Part shown: one piece after another, positions 4,217-29,076 of the stretch | Layout: each line of letters begins with the position of its first letter | Position numbering within the stretch: the stretch's first letter is position 1 | Virus record (IMG/VR): IMGVR_UViG_3300023301_000035 | Span: 1 to 37,919 of that record | Length of the DNA stretch: 37,919 nucleotides | Source: a virus | Strand: one strand, 5' to 3' | Program-made: the position numbers and the translations under genes | Notes under the pieces: generated by a model | The model's database searches: none | What the model saw: the letters and a program-made list of their open reading frames with translations, nothing else | What the model was told of the DNA's origin: nothing

Positions 4217-6911
4217 ATTGTTCTGGTGTTATTGTACCCTCATCTAATAATCGTTTAGCAATCTCATTAAACTGCCCGGTCAGTTCTTCAACTGAAGGGT
4301 AGTTCGCCTTACTTGAAATAGTAGCATAGTCCACAACTGTTGCATACTTTGGCCCACCTAAGCTGTTATCCACGTAGTTGACTGTGACACCGTGCTTTTC
4401 TTCCAGTTCACGCACCACCTTTAGTGAATCAATATGATTTCCAGCCACCACCTTACTTGGCACAAGCCGGCCAGCTTCAGCTTCGTTGTTTAGCATTCGT
4501 GCTACCACACCATTTTCAAACGCATCTAGGGGGTCACGATATACATAATCAACTATGATGTCTTTGTTAGCAGCATGAGCTTCTTCAATCTTCCTCAAAG
4601 CTGACTCTATTGATGAGAGGTTTGAATCAAATACAAACGCTGCATCATCCATTTGTTCATTGACACCATTAAGTCCTTTTAAGGCTGAACTTTTCCCAGT
4701 ACCAGAACCACCAGCGGTCATAACTACCGTTTCACCAGGATTCTTCAAAGCTTCAGTGAAAGCCTTTTTAGATAGGTATGAGGATGGCTCTTGAACGGAT
4801 GCTGCATTACTTCCAACATATCCTTCATCTTTAAACAAAGTTCGGAAAAGGTCAGTGTTGATTACAGTTCCACCTTCAGTTTCAGCAATATTTTTATACT
4901 GAGCAAGTAATTCATCTTCTTGGTCCAGGATTTTGTTGAATGCTGCATCTTCAATCGCTTTATTTTCTGGTGTTAATGAAGGTTCACGTTCGAATGAATC
5001 GCTTTTGGATTGTCTAGCTACAGCAGCAGCTTCAGTTTTGGCTGCTGCTGATACTGCATCATCCTTCACTGTTTGCCCCGGCTTAAACGTACCTGGTGTT
5101 CCAGTACCTTCACCGATTGAATTGAGATACGCTTCGAATGATTCTTGAATTTCTTTCTGACTCGCTCGTGAACTCATGGCCCGGTCAAACAAGCCACCTA
5201 CGTTGAAGGTTGCTACGTCTGCTGCTGTACCGGCACTAGATTGATTAATACCACGTGTATTACTTCCACTGAAGCCACGTGTTGGTGTAATATCATACAA
5301 ATCTTCTAGCTGGTCAGTGACATAAATCAGCTTGTTTAGGTCTACCGTTGAAGCGTAACCATTGGCTTTAGCTGTATTAAGTACACCATCAATAACTGAT
5401 TGTGGCCGGTCTGCTGCATTTCCTAGTACTCGTAAAGCTACTTCACTAATCTTTAACTCTTTAGCTGATAGTTCATCAAGGTTTCCCTTGTAGCCAAGTA
5501 GCTTCACCATGTCACCAAGTGGTGTGGACATTTCTGCATACTGCTTTCGCAAGGCATTGTAATCAGCTGGCATCAATTCACCAACTTGCTGTCTAGCAAC
5601 ACCAGCAATCTTTGATACTTCATCACTGAAAGTCTTTTCACGCTTTTGAACCAAGTCAAAATCTTTTAGTGTTCGCTGCAACCATTTATCCAAATCAGCT
5701 TCAGAATTTAAAGTACCATCCGATAGTTGGTCATATAGTTTTTGAATCTGAGGTACGTCACCTGAAGCGAGCGTTCCAGTGTTTGGAATAATTTTTGCAT
5801 CCAAATCAAATTCTACTTGGTAAGTATCTCTCAGGTATTCATCAAACTGGCGAAAAGCCACCTCAGTATCAATGTTAGTTTCTGTGCTAAGTCCTTTTCG
5901 TCTTTCACCAAGTTGTGTACCTACTTTTTTTCGTTCCTCGATTATAAACTGAACCGGCTTCATGAACTCACGCCCGGCAATCACTTTTGGTTGCGGTGTG
6001 TTTGGTGTTGGGTCACTTTCTTTGGCTTTGGCTTGCTGTACCAATTCCCGGTAGATAGAAACTTCTTCAGGTGTTGAACGGTCAATCACATTGACTACTT
6101 TTTCATCTGCACCGTTCTTAATTAAAGTACCTTTTTCTTTGGGCATCTGAGCCATCCGGCGTGATTCACTCGCTGTTTCCTGTGCTTCACGTGAAGTTCG
6201 TGTGGCAAAGTCTTTGATTTGTGTAGCAGCACCTTTAACAGTATCAACCACTGGATTGCCAGCTGCTTCAACTGGATTTGCTGCTGTCAAAATGGCTTGT
6301 GCTGCATCCTGAGAAGTGCGTTCAACTACATCTTTACCGGCTGTTTTTGCACCGCTTCTGAGCGTGTTTTGGATGCTTCTGAGTCCCTGACTAGCTACTT
6401 GTTTCACCCCCACACCTCCGATACCAGCGGTCATAGTATTTGCTACTGGCGCAATAATATTGGTCAGTGTATATTTTTGTTCATCTGGCAAAGCTTCATA
6501 TTGCTTAACTGCCCATTTACCCCATTCACTGTTCAAAGCTGCTTCACCACCTTGGGCAATTGCTCCACTAAGCTGTTCTTCAAATTCAGGCGTAGTCAAA
6601 AGCCTTCCAGCACCCGTAATACCTTCAGCAGCTAAATTGACCGCACCAGAAATTGGCGCTGTAAGCGCACCAGCAGCACGTTGAGTAACTGAAAGTCCAG
6701 GTGTAGTGAAAGCTTCTTTAATATTCTTTCCAGTGTCACCGATAACCCCTAGTGAGTTTTTAAAACTAGTTGCAACATCATTTGGAATATCAGAAATAAC
6801 CCGGCCAAAAGTACTGCCTTGTTGATTTTGTTCTGGCACTCTTGGTGCTTTTGGATTGACTTGCTTTACTGGCAAACCCCTACCAAACTCTTTCATTGAA
6901 ACTCGTGTCAT
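4197..6911 (-). CDS. Large virion/internal protein with C-terminal P-loop (zeta-toxin-like) kinase domain, 904 aa
   Basis: Residues 1-170 include small-residue-rich amphipathic stretches (GVNLAAEGITGAG, IAPVANTMTAGIGGVGV) typical of ejected internal virion proteins. The middle is helical and charged. Around residues 730-742 is a Walker A motif (TAGGSGTGKSS), followed by VDYVYRDPLDAFENGVVARM, which resembles zeta-toxin/PezT-type P-loop kinases that phosphorylate UDP-sugars. Last large gene of the virion cluster and 2 nt from the 678-aa gene. Inference: a virion protein that may carry a nucleotide-kinase activity into the cell. Activity not shown; an ATPase role in DNA entry is an alternative. 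Confidence 0.7.
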   Translation of the reverse strand: MTRVSMKEFGRGLPVKQVNPKAPRVPEQNQQGSTFGRVISDIPNDVATSFKNSLGVIGDTGKNIKEAFTTPGLSVTQRAAGALTAPISGAVNLAAEGITGAGRLLTTPEFEEQLSGAIAQGGEAALNSEWGKWAVKQYEALPDEQKYTLTNIIAPVANTMTAGIGGVGVKQVASQGLRSIQNTLRSGAKTAGKDVVERTSQDAAQAILTAANPVEAAGNPVVDTVKGAATQIKDFATRTSREAQETASESRRMAQMPKEKGTLIKNGADEKVVNVIDRSTPEEVSIYRELVQQAKAKESDPTPNTPQPKVIAGREFMKPVQFIIEERKKVGTQLGERRKGLSTETNIDTEVAFRQFDEYLRDTYQVEFDLDAKIIPNTGTLASGDVPQIQKLYDQLSDGTLNSEADLDKWLQRTLKDFDLVQKREKTFSDEVSKIAGVARQQVGELMPADYNALRKQYAEMSTPLGDMVKLLGYKGNLDELSAKELKISEVALRVLGNAADRPQSVIDGVLNTAKANGYASTVDLNKLIYVTDQLEDLYDITPTRGFSGSNTRGINQSSAGTAADVATFNVGGLFDRAMSSRASQKEIQESFEAYLNSIGEGTGTPGTFKPGQTVKDDAVSAAAKTEAAAVARQSKSDSFEREPSLTPENKAIEDAAFNKILDQEDELLAQYKNIAETEGGTVINTDLFRTLFKDEGYVGSNAASVQEPSSYLSKKAFTEALKNPGETVVMTAGGSGTGKSSALKGLNGVNEQMDDAAFVFDSNLSSIESALRKIEEAHAANKDIIVDYVYRDPLDAFENGVVARMLNNEAEAGRLVPSKVVAGNHIDSLKVVRELEEKHGVTVNYVDNSLGGPKYATVVDYATISSKANYPSVEELTGQFNEIAKRLLDEGTITPEQYAGYIE

Positions 6912-17491: not shown

Positions 17492-18859
17492 TTAAAGTCC
17501 ATGACGTTGTGAAGCGTTATTGACAAAGTTGGTATGAGCCATATGTTGTTCAGCCACAATGCGTTCTTCTTGCTCAGGGTTCACACCATCAATAACTGAA
17601 ACCGCTGCATAGCGCACCGCATCCATTGGGTCACTAAAGGTGTGATTCGGTATACCAAGTGATTCACCATCTTTGTTTTCTTTCCATGAGTAATTCTCAT
17701 ATGACTTCCAAGTGTTACGGCTACGCCGGGTTACTTTAATCTTGATGCCACTGACTACACTGATTCCATAATCAACTGAGCCTTCACCTTTTTCTACCTG
17801 AGTAATATTTACCCCTTCATCACGCAACGCTTCAATCAAGCGATTCTCATTAGTATCACTAAAGAATGGTGCTTTCTCTTTCTGGTTCAACAGCACCTGA
17901 GCAATGTATTCAGTTTTCAACTCAGTGCCATGCAACACCTCATCAACAATGTAGTAGCCATCATAATAGTACAAATTAATAGCAACCAAAGGGTCAGGAA
18001 ACCAGCCAAGGTCCATACCACCAGCTAACAGCTTTGCACCAAATGGTAACTCATCAATGATTTCCCAGCCAGAATAGATACGACCTCGCACAGTATCGGG
18101 ACATAGACCTTCTATCTTGTGCCAGTAGTAATCAGGTTTTCTATCTTTGTACCGTAAATACTTTTGAATAGTGAAGGCATCAAGATTGTTTTCATTGGAC
18201 CTGAAGTTAAAGTATAGAAATTCTGTATATGGTGAGACTTCAGGCTTTAGTACAGGCCGGGTGAATCCTGGTACTTCAGTTGGTTCAAGATTAAAGAATT
18301 CTTTGATTATCCAGTGATTCTTTGGTGGTGTGTTCAAACACATAACCACTGTTATTTCACCCTTTACTGTTCGTAGGGAATCATCCAGTTGCATAAACTC
18401 AGCTTCACCAATTTCCTCAGCTTCTTCAATGATGATGGTGTTGTAACTAGCAAGTGACTTCAACTTAGCTGAACGGTCACCAGAAGATGCTTTAAATCCC
18501 AGTGCATTAATACTGTTTACCTGCTCAGTGCCGTCTGGCTTCTTCATGGTGTAACGCATCTTCATTTCATTATCACCAATCCTTATGTTTTCTGAAATAC
18601 CTTGTTCTTCAACCCGGTCAACAATTTCTTGCCAAATAGATGAACGAATATCACCCTGGACCAAACGCATAATGGCACAACGTAAATACTCAGGCGCTAT
18701 CAGCTTTGCTAAAGCAAACTGACTAGCAACAAATGAGCGACCTGCACCACGACCACCCATCAAAATAATGTAGCGCACACCATTACGTTTTATAAATAGT
18801 GGTTTCCAGCAATCATTCACTTGCTGATTTACTAAAATACCTTTTTTAGCTGTCTCCAT
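17492..18859 (-). CDS. terL: Terminase large subunit (ATPase and nuclease), 455 aa
   Basis: Walker A GGRGAGRS (residues 35-42), Walker B TIIIEEAEEI (about 140-149), coupling motif LNTPP, then the RNase H-like nuclease with GMDLGWFPDP (about 280), SDTNENRLIEAL and the C-terminal acidic residue in HTFSDPMDAVRYA. It is the packaging motor that cuts concatemers and pumps DNA through the portal; the fold matches the Terminase_3/6 type. Start chosen at the ATG at 18859 (14-nt overlap with TerS); an upstream TTG at 18892 would add 11 residues. Confidence 0.95.
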   Translation of the reverse strand: METAKKGILVNQQVNDCWKPLFIKRNGVRYIILMGGRGAGRSFVASQFALAKLIAPEYLRCAIMRLVQGDIRSSIWQEIVDRVEEQGISENIRIGDNEMKMRYTMKKPDGTEQVNSINALGFKASSGDRSAKLKSLASYNTIIIEEAEEIGEAEFMQLDDSLRTVKGEITVVMCLNTPPKNHWIIKEFFNLEPTEVPGFTRPVLKPEVSPYTEFLYFNFRSNENNLDAFTIQKYLRYKDRKPDYYWHKIEGLCPDTVRGRIYSGWEIIDELPFGAKLLAGGMDLGWFPDPLVAINLYYYDGYYIVDEVLHGTELKTEYIAQVLLNQKEKAPFFSDTNENRLIEALRDEGVNITQVEKGEGSVDYGISVVSGIKIKVTRRSRNTWKSYENYSWKENKDGESLGIPNHTFSDPMDAVRYAAVSVIDGVNPEQEERIVAEQHMAHTNFVNNASQRHGL

Positions 18860-19418
18860 CAGAAGTTGTTTCGTTATTAGTTTGCGAGCCAAAGGTTATG
18901 GCGTTCCCTGCTATTGGCATCTGGTTACCTTCAGTATCTTCAGTGACATGGATATTTTTATCACTGAACCTCTTAGGTAGCATTTTGGATAGTTTCCACT
19001 TACGTACATCAGCACGCAATCGTGAGCGCTGGATGTGTTCAGTATTGACCACTTCATAATCATCGCCATTAGCATTTTTCCTAGTCATGTAATCGTTCGT
19101 ACCATCATCAGCGATATCTTCCAATTCATCAAACATATTCTCAGCTCGGACCACCAAAGCAGATTCGTACTGGTTAAAAAAGTTCCTCAAGTCAACACTC
19201 GCTGTTTCTACTGCACCATCAAGTACCCACGAGTGAACAGAAATTCGTGAAGGCATCTTTTCATCCTTACAAATAGTACGTAGTGATTCACCTTCAGTAA
19301 TTCTCAGGCAAATAGTTTTACCTAGTGCTGCGCTAAACTTTGTCGGCCTACCCATTTTCTTTTTGGCTGGCGCTGCCTTCTTCTTAGTGACAGCGCCGTT
19401 TTTCTTTGCTGTTTTCAT
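18846..19418 (-). CDS. terS: Terminase small subunit, 190 aa
   Basis: After a basic N-terminus comes GRPTKFSAALGKTICLRITE, then GESLRTICKDEKMPSRISV, the helix-turn-helix that small terminase subunits use to bind packaging DNA, followed by helices for oligomerisation (DIADDGTNDYMTRKN...). Start ATG at 19418 is 8 nt from an extended -10 box; an in-frame TTG two codons upstream is a worse choice. Recognises the genome for packaging together with TerL, whose gene it overlaps. Confidence 0.9.
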   Translation of the reverse strand: MKTAKKNGAVTKKKAAPAKKKMGRPTKFSAALGKTICLRITEGESLRTICKDEKMPSRISVHSWVLDGAVETASVDLRNFFNQYESALVVRAENMFDELEDIADDGTNDYMTRKNANGDDYEVVNTEHIQRSRLRADVRKWKLSKMLPKRFSDKNIHVTEDTEGNQMPIAGNAITFGSQTNNETTSDGDS

Positions 19419-19435
19419 ATGCAAAAATTATAACA
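19419..19435 (-). promoter_or_regulatory. Extended -10 promoter for terminase genes, leaderless type
   Basis: Minus-strand TGT-TATAAT (19435-19427), 8 nt, ATG 19418. Lies at the edge of the TGACAC-repeat region, so proteins bound there could also control late transcription. Confidence 0.65.
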
Positions 19436-19472
19436 CAGCTTTAATACAGCCAAGAAAAGAAGTGACGGTCAG

Positions 19473-19759
19473 ACTGACACCTGGGCGACTGACACTAGTT
19501 TTAAACTCTCCCCTATATATACACATATATACATATTATATATATATATATATATATAATAAAAAAGTGTCAGAGTGTCAGTTAGTGTCAGACCATGGCT
19601 AATTTAAAGGTTAATTTTGACTGACACTAGAAAAATTAGTGTCAGTTTTAGTGTCAGTATTTTAACATTACAACACAAAATAAAAGATTGTCATTTTGAC
19701 AATCTTTAAATCTGTTTTATGCTGTTTTTTAGACCCCTTTTTGACTGACAGTGTCAGTC
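19473..19759. other. Candidate replication origin: TGACAC iterons flanking an AT-rich tract
   Basis: The hexamer TGACAC occurs nine times: direct at 19475-19480, 19490-19495 and 19622-19627, inverted (GTGTCA) at 19567, 19575, 19585, 19639, 19651 and 19751. Most are extended to ACTGACAC. Between the first two and the rest is a 54-bp almost pure AT tract (19513-19566), a plausible unwinding element. At 19743-19759 is a 17-bp palindrome, GACTGACA-G-TGTCAGTC, touching the helicase stop codon. This is the only gene-free stretch over 300 bp and lies beside the SF3 helicase, so an iteron origin is the best reading. An operator array for the terminase promoter is the alternative. Confidence 0.65.
19683..19707 (-). 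terminator. Hairpin downstream of the helicase gene
   Basis: Perfect 10-bp stem AAAGATTGTC / GACAATCTTT with 5-nt loop. On the minus strand it follows the helicase stop by about 50 nt and is followed by TTATTTTGTG, so it may end the helicase transcript. It may also be a structural part of the origin. Confidence 0.5.
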
Positions 19760-21280
19760 CTAAAAATGAGTGCTTTTTTCACGAATTAAACCAACAGAAT
19801 TGAACTCAAAAGCATCTTTCAAACCAAGTCCATGCCACTCTTTAAATCCGTTACTATCTTTGTTGCTGTAGATTTTATCGAACTGAGAAAGTCCATGATG
19901 TTTCAACGCCATACCAAATCGTTGCGGTGTGAGTGAATCGCTGTACCTATCTGTAGCAAAATCTTGGTAAGCATCGAGCAACACTTTTGAAGATATAGTT
20001 CTTGCATGTTCGTCAAACACAAAATGGTAGTCTAAAAACTCAGACATTGTATTACTGCTGGTTTTGTATTCCTCAATCATTTCTGCATGTCCTTCAACTG
20101 TCACAAAGTCTTTCATCTTTCGCAAATCAGCTAGACCTTTAAGCATACGATTTAAAATACCACTAGCTTCAGCGTTCAGAATATTACGAATGTCATGGTT
20201 GACAGTCATGCTGTCATAGAATGAGTATTCCAAATGAATAAGTAACATTCGCCGGTATATACCCATTTCAGCTGACCGTGGTAACGTGTTTGCAGTCAAG
20301 ACGCACTTCAGCTGGTTACCAGGATAGACAAACCCACTAATTCCTTTACGTTCCACTTCAATATTCTGACCAGTCACTAGATTAATCAGTGAGTTACTCA
20401 TGTTGGACCGGGTGACTTCAACTTCATCAAACCAGCAAAGTTGTTTACCTACTAGTGATACCCCACCAAACCGGGCAAACGAATCAGTTGAAATCTTATT
20501 CAAGCTAGACTGCACCGCACAATCACCTAAGACATCGGACCAGCAATCGAGTAAAGTGGATTTTCCACTACCCGGCTTACCAATCAGCACTAGCATTTTC
20601 TGGTAAGTGATATCAGGTGTCAGCAGTAGACCTGAAAACTGGTCAATTGCTCGCACCTGGTCAGGTTTCAGTTGCATTTGTGTATCTAAAAAGTGGTCAT
20701 AGTTTTTACAGTTAGCATTCTTTTTATATGATACGGCACTAGAGCGTTTACTCAATCTGTCTGGTGTGTGCTTTTGGAACTTCAGTGTATCTACGTTCAC
20801 CCAACCATTCTTGGCATGAAACCAATCATCTTGGCTGTCAAAATCATCATAGTCTGAACCACGATTTAAAAACATAGCTCGATATTTAGACAGGATGTTC
20901 TTCACCGCAACTTCACTAGCAGTATCATCCAAACCGTCATCAACCATCATTTTGATGACCAGACCACGTACCGTTACAAAATTGATTTCGTCATACACAC
21001 CACTGTCTTCATTGTATAACCAGTACGTTTTGTCTTCACCAATTTCGAACCGTAGGTATGGGTAGATGTCTGCTACATACTTATGAAAGTGTAATTTGTG
21101 TTGGTTTTTAAGGATTTTTAAGAGCTTCACCCAGTCCTTATCACTGTAGTCAGCTTCTTCAAGATGTGTTAAATAGGCGGTTCTTTCGGGGGTATAATCA
21201 ATGTCTGCTATAGTTTCTATACCGTCAGCCAGCAATTCCTCATTGAGCTTTTGTAAATCTGATTGTTTTTTTGTAGACAT
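19760..21280 (-). CDS. SF3/D5-type replicative helicase, 506 aa
   Basis: Start set at the ATG at 21280-21278 (MSTKKQSDLQ). Residues about 60-215 resemble the D5 N-terminal domain. Walker A GKPGSGKST (about 233-241), Walker B CWFDEV (about 281-286) and the sensor/motif C region CVLTANTLPR mark a superfamily 3 helicase of the phage/plasmid P4-D5 family. Such helicases recognise an origin, melt it and load the host replisome. No archaeo-eukaryotic primase domain is present in this protein; a CHC2 zinc-finger protein is encoded separately at 22057. Transcribed toward the iteron region. Confidence 0.9.
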   Translation of the reverse strand: MSTKKQSDLQKLNEELLADGIETIADIDYTPERTAYLTHLEEADYSDKDWVKLLKILKNQHKLHFHKYVADIYPYLRFEIGEDKTYWLYNEDSGVYDEINFVTVRGLVIKMMVDDGLDDTASEVAVKNILSKYRAMFLNRGSDYDDFDSQDDWFHAKNGWVNVDTLKFQKHTPDRLSKRSSAVSYKKNANCKNYDHFLDTQMQLKPDQVRAIDQFSGLLLTPDITYQKMLVLIGKPGSGKSTLLDCWSDVLGDCAVQSSLNKISTDSFARFGGVSLVGKQLCWFDEVEVTRSNMSNSLINLVTGQNIEVERKGISGFVYPGNQLKCVLTANTLPRSAEMGIYRRMLLIHLEYSFYDSMTVNHDIRNILNAEASGILNRMLKGLADLRKMKDFVTVEGHAEMIEEYKTSSNTMSEFLDYHFVFDEHARTISSKVLLDAYQDFATDRYSDSLTPQRFGMALKHHGLSQFDKIYSNKDSNGFKEWHGLGLKDAFEFNSVGLIREKSTHF

Positions 21281-21298
21281 AATTTTATTAGCTCGTTT

Positions 21299-21307
21299 AT
21301 TGTAGCA
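21299..21307 (-). promoter_or_regulatory. Extended -10 box of the helicase gene
   Basis: Minus-strand TGC-TACAAT (21307-21299), 18 nt before the helicase ATG. Divergent from the plus-strand early promoter at 21352-21360. Confidence 0.5.
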
Positions 21308-21326
21308 CACCGCTGTTTTCAACAAC

Positions 21327-21335
21327 TGTGGATAA
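21327..21335 (-). other. Perfect DnaA-box match
   Basis: TGTGGATAA is the exact complement of the bacterial DnaA box TTATCCACA. It lies in the divergent intergenic region between the helicase and the early genes. A second exact match is at 33948-33956. Confidence 0.4.
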
Positions 21336-21803: not shown

Positions 21804-22079
21804 ATGAAAACTATCCAAACCCCTAACTTTACAACCGCTGAATCAGTTCGTGAACGATTACAAGAACGGCTGGAACTGACCGCTAGAAAAATGACTGAAG
21901 TTGGTTGTGCCAACGCTTTGATAGTTGTGACCGATGCTACCGTGGATAAGCAAACCATGTCAGTTCATCCTGGTGACATTCAGTCTAGTAAAGACCATTG
22001 CCACAACGATAGACGTACCGGCTCAAAATATTGTCAGACCTGTTCAGATACACACAATGCAATACCTACAAATAACTAA
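21804..22079 (+). CDS. Hypothetical protein with Cys/His cluster, 91 aa
   Basis: N-terminal helical half (ESVRERLQERLELTARKM) and C-terminal cluster HCHNDRRTGSKYCQTC that could bind zinc. Starts 1 nt after the previous stop and overlaps the next gene by 23 nt. Context among replication genes suggests a nucleic-acid-linked role; no family recognised. Confidence 0.6.
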   Translation: MKTIQTPNFTTAESVRERLQERLELTARKMTEVGCANALIVVTDATVDKQTMSVHPGDIQSSKDHCHNDRRTGSKYCQTCSDTHNAIPTNN

Positions 22080-22731
22080 AAAGAAAGGCATCTACTACGA
22101 TGTGGAATTCCAACCAGAAAAAATAAATCTCTCTGGCGCTTTAGCTTTGTTCGCACCCACTTTTGAAACTCTTGAAGAATTGAAGCAAGACCTAGTGAGC
22201 AACATGCAACACTCAGTCAGTCAGGTAAAAGCCAACCGGCCAATCTTTGGCACTCAGGATGAGATGGACCAGTGGTATAGAGACAACTTTGAAGTTGGTC
22301 AGGCTCGTGTATCAGATGAGCATTTTGAAAATATTATGGTCATTCGCACTGAGCTAAACCGTTTGCAGATTGAATCAATCACTGAGCAACCCCGGCGGTC
22401 AATGAAGCGCATCATCCAGCGCCAGCAACACTTGATGCAGCCGGCCAAGCGTCAAGGTGGTGTGACTGAAGAACAGATTGAATCAGCTCGTGAGTACCCC
22501 CTTGAAGAACTGGTTGACAGCCGTCAAATATTCAAAGCTGGCGGTAAGTGGCGCAGCAACTGTCATTGCCCACTTGTTGGTCATGAAGGTGAAAAAACAG
22601 CATCGTTCTACATTGATAAGCAAAACCGCTACAAGTGTTTTGGCTGTCACGGCAATGGTGATGCTATTGCTTTTGTGATGCAACGTGATGGTGTGAAGTT
22701 TGTTCAGGCTGTTAAAAGTTTGGTGAAATAA
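22057..22731 (+). CDS. DnaG-type CHC2 zinc-finger (primase) protein, 224 aa
   Basis: Start set at ATG 22057 (MQYLQITKKKGIYYDV). The C-terminal 65 residues (about 160-224) match the zinc-binding domain of bacterial primases: CHCPLVGHEGEKTASF, then YKCFGCHGNGDAIAFVM. This domain reads the primer start site. No TOPRIM catalytic domain follows, so the protein is a stand-alone zinc-finger module; the N-terminal 160 residues are unrecognised. It may recruit host primase catalytic activity or act with the SF3 helicase. Confidence 0.85.
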   Translation: MQYLQITKKKGIYYDVEFQPEKINLSGALALFAPTFETLEELKQDLVSNMQHSVSQVKANRPIFGTQDEMDQWYRDNFEVGQARVSDEHFENIMVIRTELNRLQIESITEQPRRSMKRIIQRQQHLMQPAKRQGGVTEEQIESAREYPLEELVDSRQIFKAGGKWRSNCHCPLVGHEGEKTASFYIDKQNRYKCFGCHGNGDAIAFVMQRDGVKFVQAVKSLVK

Positions 22732-28278: not shown

Positions 28279-29076
28279 ATGGGATTAAAATCTACAAAAG
28301 ACCAAAAGCGTTATCTACAAATTCTAGCCGATGGAAAAATCCACGAGCGAGTTGATGAAGATACTGAAGGTGCAAAAATTCGAACCAAGAAAGACCAAGA
28401 CGGTACTGAAGAAGATGTCGTTGACAAAGACGGTAACGAAGTTTACGAGCTGACTTACCCTGGTCTTGAAGATGTAACTATCACCAAGATTCAATTCAGA
28501 GAAGGGTACGAAAGTAATATCAATATCAACATTGATATGTTTGATGAATATGATAATAATTTCTGTCTATCACTACTTGCTGCGAGTAACTACGGCGAGC
28601 GCTTCATGGAAGTGTTACCAAACATTGACCTGAACAAGCCAGTTGAAATTGACGGTTATGCCTTTACACCAAAAGGACAAACCAAGAAAGTTCGTGGTGT
28701 GACCATCAAACAAGATGGTGAAAAGCTTACCTCAGCGTTTGCTGTCAAAGAAAAAGATGAAGATTGGGAAGTGCTAGTTGAAGGTTTCCCAATGCCAGAT
28801 GCAAAGAAAGATTACAACAAGGGTGAACGATGGAAAATTTTCTTTGCTCAACGGCGTGAATGGGTGATGGAATACCTAGAAGAAAATGAATTCATTCTTG
28901 GTACAGATTCACCGGAAACTGAAGATGCTGATGATGAAGAACCAGAAGATGATGATGAAGAAGAAGTAAAGCCAAAGAAGAAAGCAGTTGCTAAAAAGGC
29001 TGTAAAGAAAACAGCCAAGAAAAGCAAGAAAAGCAAGAAGGGTGAAGAAGATGAAGATGAAGATGAAGCTTTCTAG
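28279..29076 (+). CDS. Probable single-stranded DNA-binding protein, 265 aa
   Basis: About 205 residues of beta-rich sequence are followed by an acidic stretch (TEDADDEEPEDDDEEE), a Lys/Ala-rich linker and a final acidic tip ending DEDEDEAF. An acidic tail ending in Phe is the protein-interaction tip of bacterial SSB and of phage proteins such as T7 gp2.5. Its own promoter and place after the nuclease genes support this. The core is not recognisably an OB fold by eye, so the call is inference. Confidence 0.65.
   Translation: MGLKSTKDQKRYLQILADGKIHERVDEDTEGAKIRTKKDQDGTEEDVVDKDGNEVYELTYPGLEDVTITKIQFREGYESNININIDMFDEYDNNFCLSLLAASNYGERFMEVLPNIDLNKPVEIDGYAFTPKGQTKKVRGVTIKQDGEKLTSAFAVKEKDEDWEVLVEGFPMPDAKKDYNKGERWKIFFAQRREWVMEYLEENEFILGTDSPETEDADDEEPEDDDEEEVKPKKKAVAKKAVKKTAKKSKKSKKGEEDEDEDEAF

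Follow-up and report, generated by a model that had tools for sequence, protein, structure and literature searches.

A putative iteron origin beside an SF3 helicase gene in an uncultured phage, and different repeat words on a shared layout in its relatives

The stretch of DNA analysed here, referred to as the window, comprises all 37,919 nt of record IMGVR_UViG_3300023301_000035, a phage from an environmental sample, and coordinates refer to it unless a relative is named. In the window a 335-bp gap separates two minus-strand genes, one encoding a D5/SF3-type helicase that is the presumed initiator (19760..21325; identified by Pfam, PHROG and profile matches) and the other a terminase small subunit of the Sf6 type (18846..19424; Pfam PF20901, 1.8e-27). 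Most of the gap is occupied by an array of short repeats in both orientations (19473..19756), located directly 3′ of the helicase gene. The initial annotation had placed this array at the switch between the virion genes and the helicase, but because helicase and terminase are on the same strand there is no strand switch at the array; the divergent switch lies near 21.3-21.5 kb, as does the cumulative GC-skew minimum.

The helicase ORF is 521 aa long from a TTG start codon; the length of 506 aa given previously corresponds to an internal ATG at 21280. Its Pfam matches are to D5_N (1.9e-8) and DUF5906 (1.1e-13), and it also matches PHROG primase families (phage primase/helicase), although no primase catalytic domain was found by Pfam in the 521 aa. 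Profile comparisons matched it to the putative primase orf382 of phage Sfi21 (E 2e-8), to the helicase of Pseudanabaena phage Pan4 (E 6e-14) and to the alpha protein of P4 (E 6e-5), the last match extending into the C-terminal region, while profile searches of PDB sequences returned nothing meaningful. A structural model of residues 412-521 (AF2, pLDDT 85) predicts a winged helix at approximately residues 446-521 (19763..19990, minus strand), which is presumed to be the iteron-binding domain. Only the C-terminal domain was taken into a structure search, because the full-length model was poor (pLDDT 41). Among the closest solved structures are winged helices of the RFX type (Z 8.4), the C-terminal end of the ASFV PrimPol (Z 7.5) and the origin-binding domain of P4 alpha (1ka8), matched over 85 residues with a VIA Z of 6.9. 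This modelled likeness is no more than suggestive; unrelated winged helices also reach Z 6.9, and values below 8 can reflect a common arrangement.

The array contains nine copies of CTGACAC, seven of which read ACTGACAC. Their TGACAC cores are at 19475, 19490 and 19622 on the plus strand and at 19567, 19575, 19585, 19639, 19651 and 19751 on the minus strand, so the nine hexamers in both orientations, mostly extended, that had been listed earlier are all present where they were reported. Across the whole genome TGACAC shows no enrichment (28 occurrences, 25 expected), whereas the array packs nine copies into 287 bp; the highest count was four among 300 dinucleotide-shuffled genomes and three among 2,000 shuffled versions of the helicase-terminase intergenic region. 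When pure A/T words are set aside, ACTGACAC and its overlapping forms make up the top 8-mer cluster of the genome. No second repeat array comparable to ori1 of P4 was found elsewhere in the genome, and the DnaA box TTWTNCACA does not occur in 19424-19760, the nearest being at 21327. Copy number varies within the strain group, since the stretch to the right of the A/T tract holds three iterons in the near-identical strains L006, L007 and L008 but two in the window and in L005. A TGACAC inverted pair, 18 bp apart, is located at 2867-2890, inside the gap at 2765-2903.

The repeats surround an A+T-rich core (19511..19566, delimited by base composition). Its first 54 bp (19511-19564) contain six G/C; they overlap both the lowest-GC 54-mers of the genome, which start at 19513-19515, and its longest pure A/T run (34 bp, 19533-19566), and the 54-bp tract described in the initial annotation is thereby borne out. 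An A+T-rich element inside a repeat array is characteristic of origins of the P4, Sfi21 and SaPI type, and from its composition the core is presumed to be the unwinding element. At the helicase end of the array, a 17-bp palindrome consisting of two iteron half-sites (GACTGACAgTGTCAGTC, 19743..19759) abuts the helicase stop codon (TAG on the minus strand, 19760-19762), as had been noticed earlier, and an iteron pair near this position is also present in the relatives L004, L012, L017, L018 and L021. Between the palindrome and the core, a perfect 11-bp hairpin with a T-rich tail (19683..19707, minus strand) has the form of a terminator and is probably the intrinsic terminator of the helicase transcript. 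At the right flank is a composite, TGACGGTCAGACTGACAC (19463..19480, plus strand), that sets the TGACGG of other lineages beside the window's own word, and similar composites are found in L004 and L018. Towards the terminase gene, the array is bordered at its outer edge by a 17-nt block on the minus strand (19446..19462; ACAGCCAAGAAAAGAAG as read on the plus strand), the 14-nt core of which is kept in L005, L008, L012, L018 and L019 despite a different following gene; outside this phage group, a scan with the block matched only contigs that lack a related helicase.

Relatives were drawn from one phage record (MW202577.1, a circular genome of 39.6 kb from Manatee Spring, here L004), from viral contigs and from one contig of a metagenome-assembled genome (MAG). 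In seven helicase lineages, namely the window and relatives with 60-69% identity, the helicase gene is followed directly at its 3′ end by an array, and its word differs: ACTGACAC in the window, ACAGACAC in L012, TGACGGAYA in L004, L018/L019 and L021, GGTGAAYA in L017 and GGTGGATA in L020. The word of L027 is GGTGACGG, and its contig ends inside the array. By eye, several of the words are closed by a related half, RAYAST(A). Reading from the helicase stop codon, the common plan is a +- pair, a ++(+)- group, a + or ++(+) group, the A/T tract and a final -- group. Sites of the seven lineages share position and orientation with a mean fraction of 0.79, compared with maxima of 0.58 in controls with random positions and orientations and 0.67 in controls with shuffled orientations. 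The exceptions are that L020 lacks the first pair, one half of the first pair is imperfect in the window, the right flank of L018 consists of other forms of its word, and the lowest-GC stretch is weaker in L018 and L020. The likeness among lineages is partly a matter of inheritance by shared descent, and the layout has persisted while the words changed. More distantly, L031 (53% helicase identity) has no short-word array but tandem repeats of approximately 32 bp (GCAACCTGAGTCGGTACGTTAGTACCATATAC) at 5507-5650, directly after the helicase gene, and no array was evident by eye for distant phage helicases encoded near a DNA polymerase gene (Arthrobacter phage Warda, Vibrio phage 142E35-1).

Several known systems share features of this arrangement. 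The annotation of P4 places crr immediately after the 3′ end of alpha, with a terminator between the two, and the type 1 repeats of crr run in both orientations; in the window, too, repeats of approximately 8-10 bp and of either orientation directly follow a D5/SF3 helicase gene, and a terminator-like hairpin lies between. The winged helix of P4 alpha binds the origin repeats (PMC4234260), and the window helicase is predicted to end in a winged helix that is presumed to do the same. P4 differs in that alpha is a fused primase, whereas the window encodes a separate CHC2 zinc-ribbon protein, and in having two repeat regions (ori1 and crr), whereas one was found in the window. The window's ACTGACAC matches the P4 iteron GGTGAACAGT at 4 of 10 positions, but the consensus of L017 matches it at 9 of 10 and one L017 copy at all 10; a random 14-mer reaches at least 9 of 10 with p of approximately 0.0003, a value not corrected for how many lineages were compared. 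The iteron word shared by L017 links these phages to P4.

Phage Sfi21 of Streptococcus thermophilus is also about 40 kb in size. Its annotated origin, 302 bp long, immediately follows the 3′ end of the gene for an SF3-type putative primase and has an A/T tract surrounded by GTAACT/AGTTAC repeats of both orientations; the word and the host are different, and no common origin sequence was seen. This 302-bp noncoding element (PER) is reported to serve as an independent replication origin and to interfere with infecting phage (PMC6356513). The C-terminal domain of the SaPI Rep recognises origin iterons directly downstream of its own gene; Cch2 of SCCmec, which is related to the D5_N helicases, likewise uses its C-terminal domain to bind repeats that follow its gene (PMC7581432). 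Both the SaPI Rep/ori and the SCCmec Cch2/putative ori thus resemble the window in having iterons downstream of the initiator helicase gene, although for the window binding is presumed; they differ in belonging to a satellite or island rather than to a phage that encodes its own virion, and in their words and hosts. Pseudanabaena phage Pan4 has a homologous helicase gene and, after it, GGGGAAGAT/GGGAGGATA repeats of both orientations, but these words are G-rich, there is no long A/T tract and the region carries no origin annotation. Plasmid iteron origins of the RepE, TrfA and pSC101 types consist of head-to-tail direct repeats served by a non-helicase Rep, with DnaA boxes. The window resembles them in that repeats adjoin an A+T-rich, presumed unwinding element, but differs from them in having repeats of both orientations (three plus, six minus), an SF3 helicase as the presumed initiator and no DnaA box in the array.

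The 335-bp gap is interpreted as a replication origin of the P4 crr, Sfi21 ori or SaPI type, putatively bound by the C-terminal winged helix of the helicase itself, with a probability that we place at roughly 85% by analogy and from sequence and model. The reading is supported by the linkage of array and helicase and the conservation of the layout across lineages, by the non-random clustering of the repeats and by the predicted winged helix. The proposal of the initial annotation, an iteron origin for a D5/P4-type helicase, gains from the P4 and Sfi21 parallels, from the recurrence of the array in relatives and from the resemblance of the predicted domain to that of P4. At such an origin, the winged helix would bind the CTGACAC iterons. 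The iteron groups beside the A/T tract point inward from both sides, an anatomy that would place helicase complexes on both flanks for loading in opposed directions; the tract would then melt, and the SF3 motors, as expected of their class, would load and unwind. The forks would probably be extended by the host replisome, because no DNA polymerase gene was found. Cumulative GC skew, which had been suggested as a check, has its minimum at approximately 21.4 kb, away from the array; because this minimum follows transcription at the divergent promoter, the skew does not decide the position of the origin. The site is a candidate replication start for a group of uncultured phages, approximately 38-40 kb in size and apparently devoid of a DNA polymerase gene.

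The earlier description of a polymerase-less phage fits the finding that none of 30 ORFs scanned with Pfam matches a DNA polymerase, and the lack of the gene may be called likely, but no more than that because small ORFs were outside the scan and part of the genome may be missing from the record. Among the early genes are those for a Pif1-like helicase, a DnaQ-like exonuclease and the DnaG-type CHC2 zinc-ribbon protein (21934-22731; Pfam, with no TOPRIM match), which may be a partial primase or a primase that works with the helicase. The protein encoded at 28279-29076, with no Pfam or PHROG match, has a long acidic C-terminal tail ending in F and looks by eye like a single-strand-binding protein.

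Other functions can be proposed for repeats in this position. The packaging sites cosB of lambda and pac of SPP1 are located near terS, and the array is just upstream of the terminase small-subunit gene, so that the repeats might be a TerS recognition site of either kind. This is very improbable, because the array stays with the helicase when terS is exchanged. L018 and L019 share the helicase (99%) and the array (approximately 92%), but the N-terminal regions of their TerS proteins are unrelated and only the C-terminal tails match; L006 and L007 keep the array words and 98% helicase identity with a diverged TerS N-terminus; and the ORF next to the array has no family match in L021 and is on the opposite strand in L017. 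Sequence comparison thus indicates that the terminase small-subunit gene is outside the putative origin module, as a neighbour that is exchanged in relatives. The intergenic position of inverted repeats upstream of late genes would equally suit an operator or promoter array through which a phage or host regulator controls transcription of the terminase and late genes, and in L004 a small ORF annotated as a transcriptional regulator (43 aa, 20379-20510 of that genome) lies between the array and terS. No ORF like this regulator was recognised in the window's gap, however, and an operator would not usually have nine sites around a pure A/T run of 34 bp. The initial annotation had also suggested that the sites control the terminase promoter; this is countered by a crude scan that found no sigma-70-like site on the minus strand of the gap, although that may not be the host's promoter type, and by L017, in which the array sits between ORFs that converge on it. 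A purely regulatory role is given the slimmest chance of the readings considered, while autoregulation of the helicase through the array would be compatible with an origin.

A different objection concerns the initiator rather than the site. An origin of the same type might be recognised by another protein, such as a small HTH-like one whose gene diverges from that of the helicase, with the helicase recruited secondarily; small ORFs that look HTH-like by eye are divergent to the helicase gene in L012, L017, L020, L021 and L027. The one such ORF tested had no PHROG match, and no counterpart was recognised in the window. Moreover, the array always follows the 3′ end of the helicase gene, and the helicase itself carries a predicted winged helix similar to the origin-binding domain of P4. 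A separate initiator is therefore improbable, and recognition by the helicase itself remains the preferred reading.

With the gap read as a helicase-bound origin, the type of site is already known, and what is new is the series of changed words on a constant layout. Word turnover is fast: the helicases of L004 and L012 are 84% identical and are sisters in the tree (support 95/97), yet their arrays use different words, TGACGGAYA and ACAGACAC, at 7-10 sites each; in the tree as a whole, array words do not track helicase phylogeny. Traces of foreign words are present: TGACGG at 19463-19468 beside ACTGACAC in the window, a single copy of ACTGACAC in L004, and TATCCGTC as a palindrome half in L006/L007. 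These patterns could be explained tentatively by origin recoding, in which every one of the 7-10 sites acquires the new word but keeps its position and orientation, even where sister helicases are 84% identical, and foreign words survive singly in the flank or palindrome; recoding might set up mutually exclusive replication types in co-infecting phages, comparable to plasmid incompatibility. We consider this a possibility worth stating, though on balance a doubtful one. If it is true, the recognition code of a P4-like winged helix could be read from this natural series. Fixed sites with changing words beside initiators that are 60-84% identical constitute a natural mutational series for helicase-origin co-evolution; no residue-to-base code is claimed, because the sequences are too few.

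The only match in a cellular genome is L027 (JANLIJ010000158.1, 3 kb), a contig of a Candidatus Kaiserbacteria MAG that carries a 62% identical relative of the helicase together with a GGTGACGG array. It offers a weak hint of a host among the Patescibacteria, which searches of 777 genomes, 380 from its phylum and 397 from its order, did not confirm, as they returned no further close match.
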